The position numbers and the translations under genes are program-made. A stretch of DNA of 64,000 bases from Chlorobiota bacterium (GTDB lineage Bacteria; Bacteroidota; Chlorobiia; Chlorobiales; Chlorobiaceae): the NCBI GenBank assembly GCA_016866305.1, contig VGMX01000008.1:1-64000 (forward strand), written 5' to 3'. The notes under the pieces are model-generated. The model ran no database searches and was not told the DNA's origin. It saw nothing but the letters and a program-made list of their open reading frames with translations. Shown here piece by piece: positions 20,712-35,357 of the stretch; positions within the stretch are counted from its first letter, which is position 1, and every line of letters starts with the position of its first letter.

Positions 20712-21764
20712 ATGATTACCTGTAGATATACCATGCCCCCGGAGTGGGCTCCTCACAAGGCGACCTGGCTTTCCTGGCCGCACAAGCTCGAATCGTGGCC
20801 CGGAAAATTCGGGCCGGTGCCCGCCGTGTTCGCTGAAATCGCCGCATGGCTGAGCACCTCCGAGGAGGTGCACATCAATGTCCTCGACGATGCGATGGAG
20901 CATGAAGCACGCGAACTTGTGCGCGCGGACGCTCATGTCGGGGCCGTTATGGAGCGGGTGTTCTTTCACCGGATTCCCACCAATGATGCATGGTGCCGCG
21001 ATCACGGACCGAATTATGTTTTCCGGAAGGGAAACGACAACCGCTTCGAGAAAGTGATCCTCGACTGGGAGTACAACGCCTGGGGCGGGAAGTATGAGCC
21101 CTATGACGATGATAATGCAGTGCCGCGACGAGTCGGGGATCTGCAGCGGATTCCGGTTGTTTCCCCAGGTATGGTGCTTGAGGGGGGAGCAATCGATGTT
21201 AACGGTAACGGGCTGCTCCTGACCACCGAATCGTGCCTGCTGAATCCAAACCGCAATCCGGCAATGAGTCGCAAGGAGATAGAGGACAACCTTCTGAACT
21301 ACCTTGGTGCAAGGAAAGTCATCTGGCTTGGCGAGGGTATCGCCGGCGACGATACCGATGGTCACGTTGACGATATGTCGCGTTTTGTAAGCGAAACGGT
21401 CGTCGTGACGGCTGTCGAGGACGATCCGGAAGATGAGAACTACAGCTCCCTCATGGACAATTACCAGCGGCTGAAGCGTTGCGCCGGTCTTGACGGCAGT
21501 CCGCTACGCATCATGAAGCTTCCGATGCCCGAACCGGTTTATTATGACGGAGAGCGGCTGCCGGCAAGCTATGCCAATTTTTACATCGCATCTTCGGTGG
21601 TGCTGGTGCCGACCTATCGTTCCTCAAGGGATCGAAAGGCGCTCGACGTGCTTCAGGAGTGCTTTCCCGACAGACAAGTGGTCGGCGTGGACTGCACCGA
21701 CCTGATCTGGGGGCTCGGTGCCATCCATTGCATTACCCATGAGGAGCCTCTGACGAGATGCTGA
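20712..21764 (+). CDS. aguA: Agmatine deiminase
   Basis: AguA hydrolyses agmatine to N-carbamoylputrescine and ammonia, the step before AguB. The 350-residue protein begins with the family signature MPPEWAPHKATWLSWPHK. It carries NDAWCRDHGPNYV, VLEGGAIDVNG, DGHVDDMSRFV and the catalytic Cys in GLGAIHCITHEEP close to the C-terminus, all hallmarks of the guanidine-modifying (penta-repeat) fold. With aguB at 18500 it forms the agmatine-to-putrescine branch. An arginine decarboxylase is not in the window. An intrinsic-terminator-like hairpin follows at 21803-21850. Confidence 0.95.
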   Translation: MITCRYTMPPEWAPHKATWLSWPHKLESWPGKFGPVPAVFAEIAAWLSTSEEVHINVLDDAMEHEARELVRADAHVGAVMERVFFHRIPTNDAWCRDHGPNYVFRKGNDNRFEKVILDWEYNAWGGKYEPYDDDNAVPRRVGDLQRIPVVSPGMVLEGGAIDVNGNGLLLTTESCLLNPNRNPAMSRKEIEDNLLNYLGARKVIWLGEGIAGDDTDGHVDDMSRFVSETVVVTAVEDDPEDENYSSLMDNYQRLKRCAGLDGSPLRIMKLPMPEPVYYDGERLPASYANFYIASSVVLVPTYRSSRDRKALDVLQECFPDRQVVGVDCTDLIWGLGAIHCITHEEPLTRC

Positions 21765-21802
21765 GTGTTCCGGGGACCTTTTTTGTATCACTTTTTTGTT
21801 GT

Positions 21803-21850
21803 CCGTCTCGATCTGGGATGATTTTCCGTTACGAATTGAGACGGTTTTTT
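21803..21850 (+). terminator. Intrinsic terminator after aguA
   Basis: CCGTCTC (21803-21809) pairs with GAGACGG (21838-21844), extended by three weaker pairs, and is followed directly by six T residues. It ends the six-gene plus-strand run and separates it from the small RNA region. Confidence 0.6.
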
Positions 21851-21938
21851 GCTGCTTTTTCAGCCGTTTTCTTGGGGGATCCCCTATCTTGTTATCCCTG
21901 AACCGTTTGTCTTTAGGCGTTCCACGGTCGGAAATATT

Positions 21939-21953
21939 TGGCATGAAGGTTGC
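21939..21953 (+). promoter_or_regulatory. Sigma-54 (-24/-12) promoter of small RNA copy 1
   Basis: TGGCATGAAGGTTGC matches the RpoN consensus TGGCAC-N5-TTGC. The invariant GG (21940-21941) and GC (21952-21953) are exactly 10 nt apart. The predicted start, about 12 nt downstream at 21965, is just before the first stem of the RNA at 21970. The same arrangement recurs before copy 2, which strengthens the call. Confidence 0.75.
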
Positions 21954-21964
21954 GTATTTACTGA

Positions 21965-22050
21965 TGAACTCCTCATTCCCGTGAGGATGAACAGATGTAA
22001 TGGGGGACATCTGTTCAAAAAAGGAGGCCTTTACGGCCTCTTTTTTTTAT
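21965..22050 (+). ncRNA. Small structured RNA, Chlorobi-1-like, copy 1
   Basis: This resembles the Chlorobi-1 motif as I remember it: two stem-loops followed by a rho-independent terminator, found only in Chlorobi and presumed to be an independently transcribed RNA. Stem 1 is CCTCAT/GTGAGG (21971-21976 with 21981-21986) with loop TCCC. Stem 2 is GAACAGATGT/ACATCTGTTC (21989-21998 with 22007-22016) with loop AATGGGGG. A terminator follows at 22024-22048. Compared with copy 2, stem 1 changes T-G to C-G and stem 2 changes A-T to G-T, so pairing is preserved. The function is unknown. The CCC of loop 1 could pair with the G-run of loop 2. Confidence 0.8.
22024..22048 (+). terminator. Intrinsic terminator of small RNA copy 1
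   Basis: GAGGCC (22024-22029) pairs with GGCCTC (22035-22040) around a five-base loop, followed by eight T residues. The stem sequence differs completely from the terminator of copy 2, while its position relative to stem 2 is the same. Confidence 0.8.
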
Positions 22051-22280
22051 CCGGAAATCGCCGTATCCGTTCCGCTCAGGCCTGTCCGGGTGCGTGTCCC
22101 GTTCGGCAGGAAATGTGTCTGTGTGTTTCAGGAGGAGACAGCGGCTGCGGACGGTGAGACGTGTTTGACGCAGAAGGTGCGATGGTGCCTGCCGGTTCTT
22201 TCTGCAGATTCCGGATTTTCCCCGGGTTTTCAGCAGGAAACAGCTTCAGGAAAAAGAAATCTGTCGGCATGAGTGGTTTT

Positions 22281-22295
22281 TGGCACGGAGTGTGC
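22281..22295 (+). promoter_or_regulatory. Sigma-54 (-24/-12) promoter of small RNA copy 2
   Basis: TGGCACGGAGTGTGC reproduces the RpoN -24 element TGGCACG exactly and has GTGC at -12, with GG (22282-22283) and GC (22294-22295) 10 nt apart. The predicted start is about 22307, six or seven nt before the first RNA stem. The distance from GC to stem 1 is 19 nt, against 18 nt in copy 1. Confidence 0.75.
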
Positions 22296-22306
22296 ACAAT
22301 AAATTA

Positions 22307-22395
22307 CGGTACTCCTCACGCCCGTGAGGAAGAGCAGATGTAATGGGGGACATCTGTTCATGAAAAAAGCGGCTTTCATGCCGCTTTTTTCATGA
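22307..22395 (+). ncRNA. Small structured RNA, Chlorobi-1-like, copy 2
   Basis: This second copy lies about 340 nt after the first, on the same strand. Stem 1 is CCTCAC/GTGAGG (22314-22319 with 22324-22329), loop GCCC. Stem 2 is GAGCAGATGT/ACATCTGTTC (22332-22341 with 22350-22359), with the identical loop AATGGGGG. The terminator at 22360-22393 follows. The 250 nt between the copies show no recognisable gene and no strong similarity to the region before copy 1 except the promoter. The preserved pairing with base changes, plus separate promoters and terminators, argues for two independent genes rather than a recent duplication. Confidence 0.8.
22360..22393. terminator. Bidirectional terminator between small RNA copy 2 and mdh
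   Basis: ATGAAAAAAGCGGC (22360-22373) pairs perfectly with GCCGCTTTTTTCAT (22380-22393), giving a 14-bp stem. An A-run and a T-run flank the GC core, so it can terminate both the RNA on the plus strand and mdh (stop at 22414) on the minus strand. Confidence 0.8.
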
Positions 22396-22413: not shown

Positions 22414-23352
<939 letters not shown>

Positions 23353-32329: not shown

Positions 32330-32536
32330 AATGATTTCTCCTTTTTCTGGTGGCGTTGAAATTGGATATTTTCAGGAAACACCCGGAGTTGATTCCTGTT
32401 AAATAACAGCTTGAAATAAATTTAAAGAATAAAAATCAATAATTAAAGGAAAATATATCTCCGGTTCTGCAGCATTGCATGAAATAACGTATACTGACAG
32501 CTGCAGTTCGTATTTCCTGAAAAACGCTGAAATTCC

Positions 32537-34190: not shown

Positions 34191-35357
34191 TCAGCGGATT
34201 TCGTAGGTCTTGATCTTGCGGTACAGTGTCCGTTCGGTGATGCCGAGGACCTTTGCGGTCTGCCGCTTGTTGCCGTTGTTGGCCTGAAGGGTTTCAAGAA
34301 TGGTTTTTCTCTCCATCTCCTCCAGCGAGGGCGCCGGCTGTTGATCGCCGGTTTCCTTTATCGGAGCGTCTGCGGTTTTGGACGGCTCCGGCACGGCAGG
34401 CATTCCTGATGCGGGGCCTGGAAGCAGAAGGGGAGGGTGTTGGGTGCGACTGTGAAGCAGCATCTGCAGCAACTGCCGGATTTCAGCCATCTCCTGGCGG
34501 AGCTGGATGATGCTGCTGTAGATAAGCTGCAGTTCCTGTTGTTCCGACTTCGACGGATCATGCACCAGGCTTTTGTGCCGGCTTCGCTGGACGAGATGCT
34601 TTTCAAGGATTTCCACCGTTATTTTCCGGCCCTTTTCCAGCACCAGCAGGGAATCCACGAGGTTTCTCAGTTCCCGCACGTTGCCTGGCCAGGGATACCG
34701 CAACAGGATTTCGACCGCTTCAGTCGTAAATCCCTCGAACGTTATACCGTGCCTCTTTTCCGAATCGCGAACGAAATGTTCCGTGAGGAGCAGGATGTCC
34801 CGTCCCCGCTCGCGGAGCGGGGGAAGCTGCAACTCAACGCTTCTGAGCCGGTAGTAGAGATCTTCACGGAAATGGTTTTCAGCTACCCGCTGGTAGAGGT
34901 TCCTGTTGGTTGCCGCGATGACGCGGGCGTCCGAATAAACGGTTTCCGAAGAGCCAACCCGCTGAAATTCACCGGTTTCAAGCACCCGGAGGAATTTTAC
35001 CTGTGTTTCCGGCGGCATTTCCCCGATTTCGTCAAGAAAGATCGTACCCCTGTCAGCGCTTTCGAAATACCCCTTGCGTGCCTGCACCGCTCCGGTAAAG
35101 GAGCCTTTTTCATGTCCGAATAGTTCCGCTTCCAGAAGACCCGAGGGAATGGCTCCGCAATTGACGGGAATGAAATTTCTGCCCGATCTCCGGCTGTGAT
35201 CGTGAATGAAACGCGCCAGCACCTCCTTTCCCGAGCCGGTTTCTCCGGTGATAAGAATCGTAATGTCGGTTTCCGCCACCTGAAGGGCGAGTTCCCTCAG
35301 TTCCGATATGACGCCCGACTGGCCGAGAAGGTCATTCTTTTCTCTTGCGGTTTTCAT
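34191..35357 (-). CDS. Sigma-54-dependent activator, AAA+ plus HTH, no receiver domain
   Basis: This protein is a bacterial enhancer-binding protein that remodels RpoN-RNA polymerase at -24/-12 promoters. The 388 residues start almost directly with the AAA+ domain: LLGQSGVISELRELA, Walker A GETGSGKEVLARFIH (about 38-52), the sigma-54 contact loop as GSFTGA (about 85-90; a Ser replaces the usual Ala), and Walker B GTIFLDEIGEMP. After a variable linker comes a Fis-type HTH (NKRQTAKVLGITERTLYRKI). There is no phosphoreceiver, GAF or PAS domain, so activity must be controlled by a partner or by expression level. It follows the SPOR-domain gene by 27 nt. Candidate target promoters are those before the small RNAs at 21939 and 22281. 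Confidence 0.93.
   Translation of the reverse strand: MKTAREKNDLLGQSGVISELRELALQVAETDITILITGETGSGKEVLARFIHDHSRRSGRNFIPVNCGAIPSGLLEAELFGHEKGSFTGAVQARKGYFESADRGTIFLDEIGEMPPETQVKFLRVLETGEFQRVGSSETVYSDARVIAATNRNLYQRVAENHFREDLYYRLRSVELQLPPLRERGRDILLLTEHFVRDSEKRHGITFEGFTTEAVEILLRYPWPGNVRELRNLVDSLLVLEKGRKITVEILEKHLVQRSRHKSLVHDPSKSEQQELQLIYSSIIQLRQEMAEIRQLLQMLLHSRTQHPPLLLPGPASGMPAVPEPSKTADAPIKETGDQQPAPSLEEMERKTILETLQANNGNKRQTAKVLGITERTLYRKIKTYEIR

Follow-up and report, generated by a model that had tools for sequence, protein, structure and literature searches.

Predicted sigma-54 promoters, upstream sites and a candidate NtrC-type activator of the tandem Chlorobi-1 RNAs in Chlorobiaceae

The aguA/mdh interval and its RNAs

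The window, a stretch of 64,000 nucleotides from a Chlorobiota bacterium (contig VGMX01000008.1), contains two Chlorobi-1 RNAs (RF01696) on the + strand, both above the cut-off of 50 bits in a cmscan search with Rfam. Copy 1 (21965-22048) matches the model at 21965-22029 with 62.8 bits and copy 2 (22307-22394) at 22308-22374 with 79.7 bits. Each consists of two hairpins and a terminator hairpin, the latter at about 22018-22046 in copy 1 and about 22360-22393 in copy 2, and the folding energies are -40.1 kcal/mol (z -6.7) and -46.6 kcal/mol (z -8.5), respectively. These are the only Chlorobi-1 copies in the 2.24-Mb genome. Each is best read as an independently transcribed sRNA of about 85 nt with a predicted promoter and a terminator of its own. 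The window also contains an Lnt RNA (RF01711, 78.4 bits) at 32373-32432, just 5' of an apolipoprotein N-acyltransferase-like gene and about 2 kb from the gene of an orphan sigma-54 activator (34191-35357, - strand).

The RNAs are flanked by aguA, a gene of the agmatine-deiminase type (PAD_porph; 20712-21764, + strand; PF04371, E 3e-123), and by the convergent malate dehydrogenase gene mdh (22414-23346, - strand; TIGR01763, 505 bits), which synteny identifies as the fixed left and right neighbours of the locus. Nearly all carrier genomes house the RNAs in this interval, in one to four copies. The Chlorobi-1 core was absent 3' of aguA in the 16 RNA-less genomes examined, and in most of these the gap from aguA to the next gene is about 60-190 bp, versus about 650 bp in the window. 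Because these gaps are empty and mostly short, presence or absence of the RNA is clear-cut.

Chlorobi-1 was rated a certain RNA, probably not cis-regulatory, by Weinberg et al. (2010, PMC2864571), and the main text of that article, where the family stands without a function, names no promoter, regulator, sigma-54 or RpoN for it. The window RNAs are members of this family by covariance model; what is added here, all by computation, is a sigma-54 promoter, an upstream activator site (UAS) and an activator.

Sigma-54 promoters and upstream sites

A predicted sigma-54 promoter of the -24/-12 type precedes each RNA on the + strand, TGGCATGAAGGTTGC at 21939-21953 for copy 1 and TGGCACGGAGTGTGC at 22281-22295 for copy 2, and both are conserved in relatives. 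The initial annotation had read the two as GG and GC exactly 10 nt apart, and this spacing was confirmed in both sequences; the -12 element of copy 2 is the weaker one (GTGC versus TTGC). It had also placed them 18-19 nt before the first RNA stem, a distance that we correct to 17 and 18 nt, counted from the C of GC to the first paired base of the fold. With -12 on this C, transcription is predicted to start at 21965 and 22307, at most 1 nt from where the RNA model begins (21965 and 22308). No sigma-70-like promoter was found in a search upstream of both RNAs.

Sites with at least 10 of the 12 consensus bases occur 3 times in the window versus about 3.9 times in shuffles, and the motif statistics of the window, not being significant, were rejected as sole proof. 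In its strict form the motif occurs just 5 times across the 2.24 Mb of the genome. A score of at least 10 within 45 nt upstream is reached by about 0.15% of shuffled upstream stretches; both window RNAs reach it, so that the chance for the pair is roughly 1e-6. It is the position of the sites, rather than the motif alone, that carries the weight, and one such site would be worth little.

We searched 98 genomes of the order for Chlorobi-1, found matches in 45 of them, and compared the upstream DNA of 101 matches, an alignment that the initial annotation had proposed, with absence of the pattern from other loci as counter-evidence. Other loci do carry it: 62 of the 101 matches share 9 or more of the 12 consensus bases in the 45 nt upstream (about 0.85% in shuffles), and nearly all stand-alone copies of Chlorobiaceae carry the element with invariant spacing. 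In 50 pairs GGCA and TTGC/T are separated by 6 nt, and no other gap is seen more than 6 times. When genomes are weighted, the information content of the alignment columns stands out only at -26 to -20 and -15 to -12 and drops further upstream to a background of 0.09 bits. Between -12 and the RNA model lie 12 to 24 nt, depending on the copy. Fixed spacing and conserved bases amid drifting flanks, at a varying distance from the RNA, indicate that the element itself is under selection, as had been suggested from the two window copies.

Copies lacking the element are of three classes: some lie behind protein genes, some are additional tandem copies in genus g2, and some belong to other families. 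Some copies outside Chlorobiaceae have a TTGACA-like sequence upstream in place of the sigma-54 element, and the promoter type of Chlorobi-1 would thus seem to differ between lineages. In genus g2 the RNA with a sigma-54 site is extended at its 5' end by GGTCTGCACAGG, capable of pairing with CCTGCAGGCC past the terminator (L097, L090, L094, L100, L102, L087), and it is often trailed by a second copy without a sigma-54 site of its own. The Chlorobi-1-like elements that lie directly behind protein genes without a sigma-54 site resemble 3'-UTR elements; six g2 genomes have one behind a PAS-domain gene (L098:3963, L088, L091, L095, L101, L103), and three other genomes behind a gene adjoining a type III sulfide:quinone reductase (L054, L056, L093).

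Further upstream, at -116 to -183 of Chlorobi-1 promoters, is a palindrome of the UAS (enhancer) kind, TGAGACA-N3-TGTCTCA. A k-mer search for exact palindromes was abandoned because terminators of adjacent RNA copies dominated its output; footprint alignment worked, and ten aligned single-copy loci gave two conserved blocks, GAGACAGTGTYCC and TGAGACAATNTGTCTC. A UAS matrix scores above 8 in 34 of the 62 promoters versus 6.5% of shuffles, a count that is partly circular because the footprint sequences themselves had seeded the matrix. As an independent check, the exact palindrome has 13 matches in 27 whole genomes, and 7 of these are at Chlorobi-1 promoters. Two others (G060, G075) precede another sigma-54 site that would drive a Sel1-repeat gene, whose product is an exported protein adjoining a MacB-like transporter (L132:649-1797, L126). 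UAS and sigma-54 site were found in combination at 33 places in 1.25 Mb of partly redundant DNA, mostly Chlorobi-1 promoters. The half-sites are in reverse order in genus g2, and the UAS has diverged in the group of G025, G026, G029, G030 and G039.

The UAS of the window itself (21800-21854 and 22114-22169) is recognisable but degenerate, and parts of it are conserved in the relative G049. Copy 1 has a UAS-like site, TGAGACGGTTTTTTGCTG, at 21837-21854 (+ strand, about -128) with a matrix score of 16.0, in a block conserved in G049, and an opposed half-site, TGTCCGTCTC, at 21800-21809; the former may double as a terminator of the upstream gene. The UAS-like region of copy 2 (22114-22169, + strand) comprises TGTGTCTGTGTGTTTCAG at 22114-22131, GAGACA at 22135-22140 and TGAGACGTGTTTGAC at 22155-22169 (-152 to -138). 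Its TGAGAC block matches G049, and the region, being degenerate, is weak by itself.

The genome encodes rpoN (PF04552, 181.6 bits) and five strong sigma-54 activators (PF00158 matches). A conserved GG-N10-GC element, rpoN with an AAA+ activator, and a UAS within the expected range of about -80 to -200 are all found, the last across the family, with the window's own copy degenerate. Together with the co-occurring activator described below, they argue for the control of these RNAs by RpoN that was put forward initially.

A candidate activator beside csmH

Four of the five activators were profiled across the 98 genomes, with NifA, the fifth, outside the profiling. One of them, G000:C2:125352-126800, is an orphan NtrC-type response regulator of receiver-AAA-Fis architecture (PF00072, PF00158, PF02954) that adjoins the chlorosome gene csmH (TIGR03058, 80.3 bits versus a cut-off of 60). 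It is present in 33 of the 34 genomes with sigma-54 RNAs versus 4 of the 52 Chlorobiaceae without (Fisher p=3e-18, a value weakened by the relatedness of the genomes), and within genus g2 in 6/6 genomes with the RNA versus 0/15 without. Tree-independent pairs drawn from the AguA tree stand at only 4-0 (p=0.125), with four independent contrasts concordant or neutral and none opposed. The regulator occurs without a detected RNA in three related genomes (G024, G028, G042) and in G072, and G043, which is 86% complete, has RNAs without a detected activator. The three other profiled activators do not track the RNA (C8, p 0.15; C14, p 0.66; C20, p 0.08).

The aligned proteins of the csmH-side regulator keep the phospho-acceptor Asp (LLLD motif) and the GSFTGA/GAFTGA loop, as an NtrC-type activator should. 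A ten-residue tandem duplication, TMPKKDGFDV, follows directly after the phospho-acceptor Asp in the receiver of the G049 activator (L138). Orthologues of C14, which is AtoC-like, have one in-frame stop in G049, G027, G040 and G046 (L144, L147, L148, L149) and are possibly decaying genes.

The same activator subfamily has a second type, encoded at a different locus, and in 8/8 genomes examined its gene is paired with a divergent sigma-54 promoter. In most of these genomes the interval between the two contains TGAGACA, TGGGACA or TGATACA palindromes. This check is independent of the co-occurrence profile. What the divergent promoter precedes in all eight genomes is the gene of a conserved small protein (about 70 residues), e.g. 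MTNELFNRLAFAVSDIDFSVIQLKR... (L198, L199, L200, L201, L202, L207, L208, L209).

It had been suggested by analogy that the RNAs respond to nitrogen status or to a stress signal. We found no support for either: the candidate activator scores below the NCBIfam cut-offs for NtrC (TIGR01818, 383.6 versus 558.6 bits), LuxO (NF041946, 338.5 versus 800 bits) and ZraR, and no kinase gene is adjacent to it in the loci examined. Its neighbours include crtP, an Lrp-type regulator and a type III glutamine synthetase. Nitrogen control is possible, and nothing here favours it except the nearby glutamine synthetase gene.

A probable sRNA circuit and its relation to known systems

All three stems of the Chlorobi-1 RNA show compensatory changes, and the loop of the second hairpin, TGGGGG, is invariant in 59/59 aligned rows and recurs in the majority of copies from outside Chlorobiaceae. 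Such constancy of a loop whose stems vary suggests that it meets a partner, either a C-rich mRNA site or a protein, and we moderately favour base-pairing with mRNA. The complement TCCCCC(A) has 22 matches at 669 gene starts, among which we found no convincing conserved target family; its occurrence in 4/25 activator-family leaders is a weak lead. Kissing of the two RNA loops was considered and dropped because loop 1 varies (GCCC, GCCA, GCAA, GAAA) and loop 2 is constant.

The explanation that we regard as highly probable is that of tandem sRNAs controlled by sigma-54 and an activator, with the csmH-side regulator as the switch and base-pairing through the UGGGGGA loop. The orphan regulator would become phosphorylated, bind the TGAGACA-type palindromes 115-185 bp upstream and remodel the sigma-54 polymerase, thereby switching RNA transcription on. 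Each RNA would start at its own sigma-54 promoter and end at its own terminator, the UGGGGGA loop of the second hairpin would probably pair with C-rich mRNA sites, and the tandem copies would raise the dose. The RNA structure, the type and spacing of the promoters, the UAS and the co-occurrence of the activator appear well supported by the comparison of genomes, while we infer activation by the csmH-side regulator, its phosphorylation, its binding to the palindrome, and the base-pairing.

Could the promoter matches arise by chance, or as a by-product of RNA conservation, with the RNAs transcribed from a housekeeping promoter or cut out of the aguA mRNA? Chance alone would yield about four motifs of this score in a window of this size, copies outside Chlorobiaceae go without the element (some with the TTGACA-like sequence instead), and some Chlorobi-1 copies sit behind protein genes. 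Such an origin is nevertheless very improbable, given that spacing and bases are kept in dozens of copies amid drifting flanks and that both window RNAs have a promoter and a terminator of their own with no sigma-70-like site upstream. It is less improbable, and still unlikely, that the -24/-12 sites are real and answer to another activator (the orphan encoded at 34191-35357, the AtoC-type C14, the FhlA-like C20, or NifA), so that the co-occurrence of the csmH-side regulator would reflect shared ancestry. All five activators are present in the genome, NifA was outside the profiling, and independent changes on the tree are few; against this, C8, C14 and C20 fail to follow the RNA, some C14 orthologues carry in-frame stops, and the palindrome recurs at the divergent promoter of the second-type regulator itself.

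A further alternative bears on the base-pairing step alone and leaves sigma-54 control in place: the RNA may be a sponge like CsrB/RsmZ or CrcZ, binding its protein at the G-rich loop. An invariant loop in variable stems and several tandem copies would fit a sponge, as would sigma-54 control, which CrcZ shares (PMC8871633). Each RNA has a single G-rich loop, however, and CsrA, the one RNA-binding protein searched for, is matched in 1 of the 98 genomes of the order and is absent from this one, which makes a CsrA sponge unlikely. The sole match (G066:C233, L218; 91.5 bits) may be foreign, since G066 is 4% contaminated. Taken over proteins in general, a sponge is a minority prospect beside base-pairing.

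Several described systems resemble the circuit proposed here. The Vibrio Qrr RNAs with LuxO or SypG (PMC10162802) are small, sometimes multicopy, terminator-ended and sigma-54-dependent, with NtrC-type activators on upstream sites, and V. fischeri has one RNA promoter that responds to two activators (PMC10162802). The window RNAs are likewise small, tandem and terminator-ended, with a sigma-54-type promoter and a candidate NtrC-type activator, but Rfam gives no Qrr match in the window, the activator is far from the LuxO cut-off, and there is no link to quorum sensing. Pseudomonas NrsZ with NtrBC (PMC8395346) is also an sRNA with a sigma-54 promoter and a response-regulator activator; it adjoins ntrC, is about 226 nt long and is processed (PMC8395346), whereas the RNAs here lie between aguA and mdh and their candidate activator is not NtrC by cut-off. 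The comparison with Qrr and NrsZ made in the initial annotation thus holds as analogy and does not extend to homology. CrcZ and CrcY (PMC8871633) are redundant, depend on sigma-54 and share one NtrC-type activator, CbrB, an arrangement like that proposed for the Chlorobi-1 pair; they sequester Hfq/Crc, a mode of action that is at most a possibility for the window RNAs. CJnc230 is processed from an RpoN-dependent mRNA (PMC11187230). By sequence or activator cut-off, the predicted Chlorobi-1 circuit is none of these. Sigma-54-dependent sRNAs are already a known kind, and we found no earlier report of one in Chlorobi in the open-access literature; the new part is a predicted sigma-54 sRNA circuit in Chlorobi.

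More speculatively, this may be a lineage-specific circuit of green sulfur bacteria, in which the csmH-side regulator drives the tandem Chlorobi-1 RNAs and UGGGGGA tunes light-harvesting or energy genes. An older RNA family without sigma-54 control would have been re-promotered in Chlorobiaceae and then gained and lost with its regulator as a unit. We hold this extended version tentatively, as rather unlikely in its entirety.

In summary, Chlorobi-1 has been a family without a function since 2010, and a promoter type, a probable enhancer and a probable activator can now be named for it, which makes its function testable as a circuit. Comparison across the family also offers an example of a single RNA family that appears to use different promoter types in different lineages.
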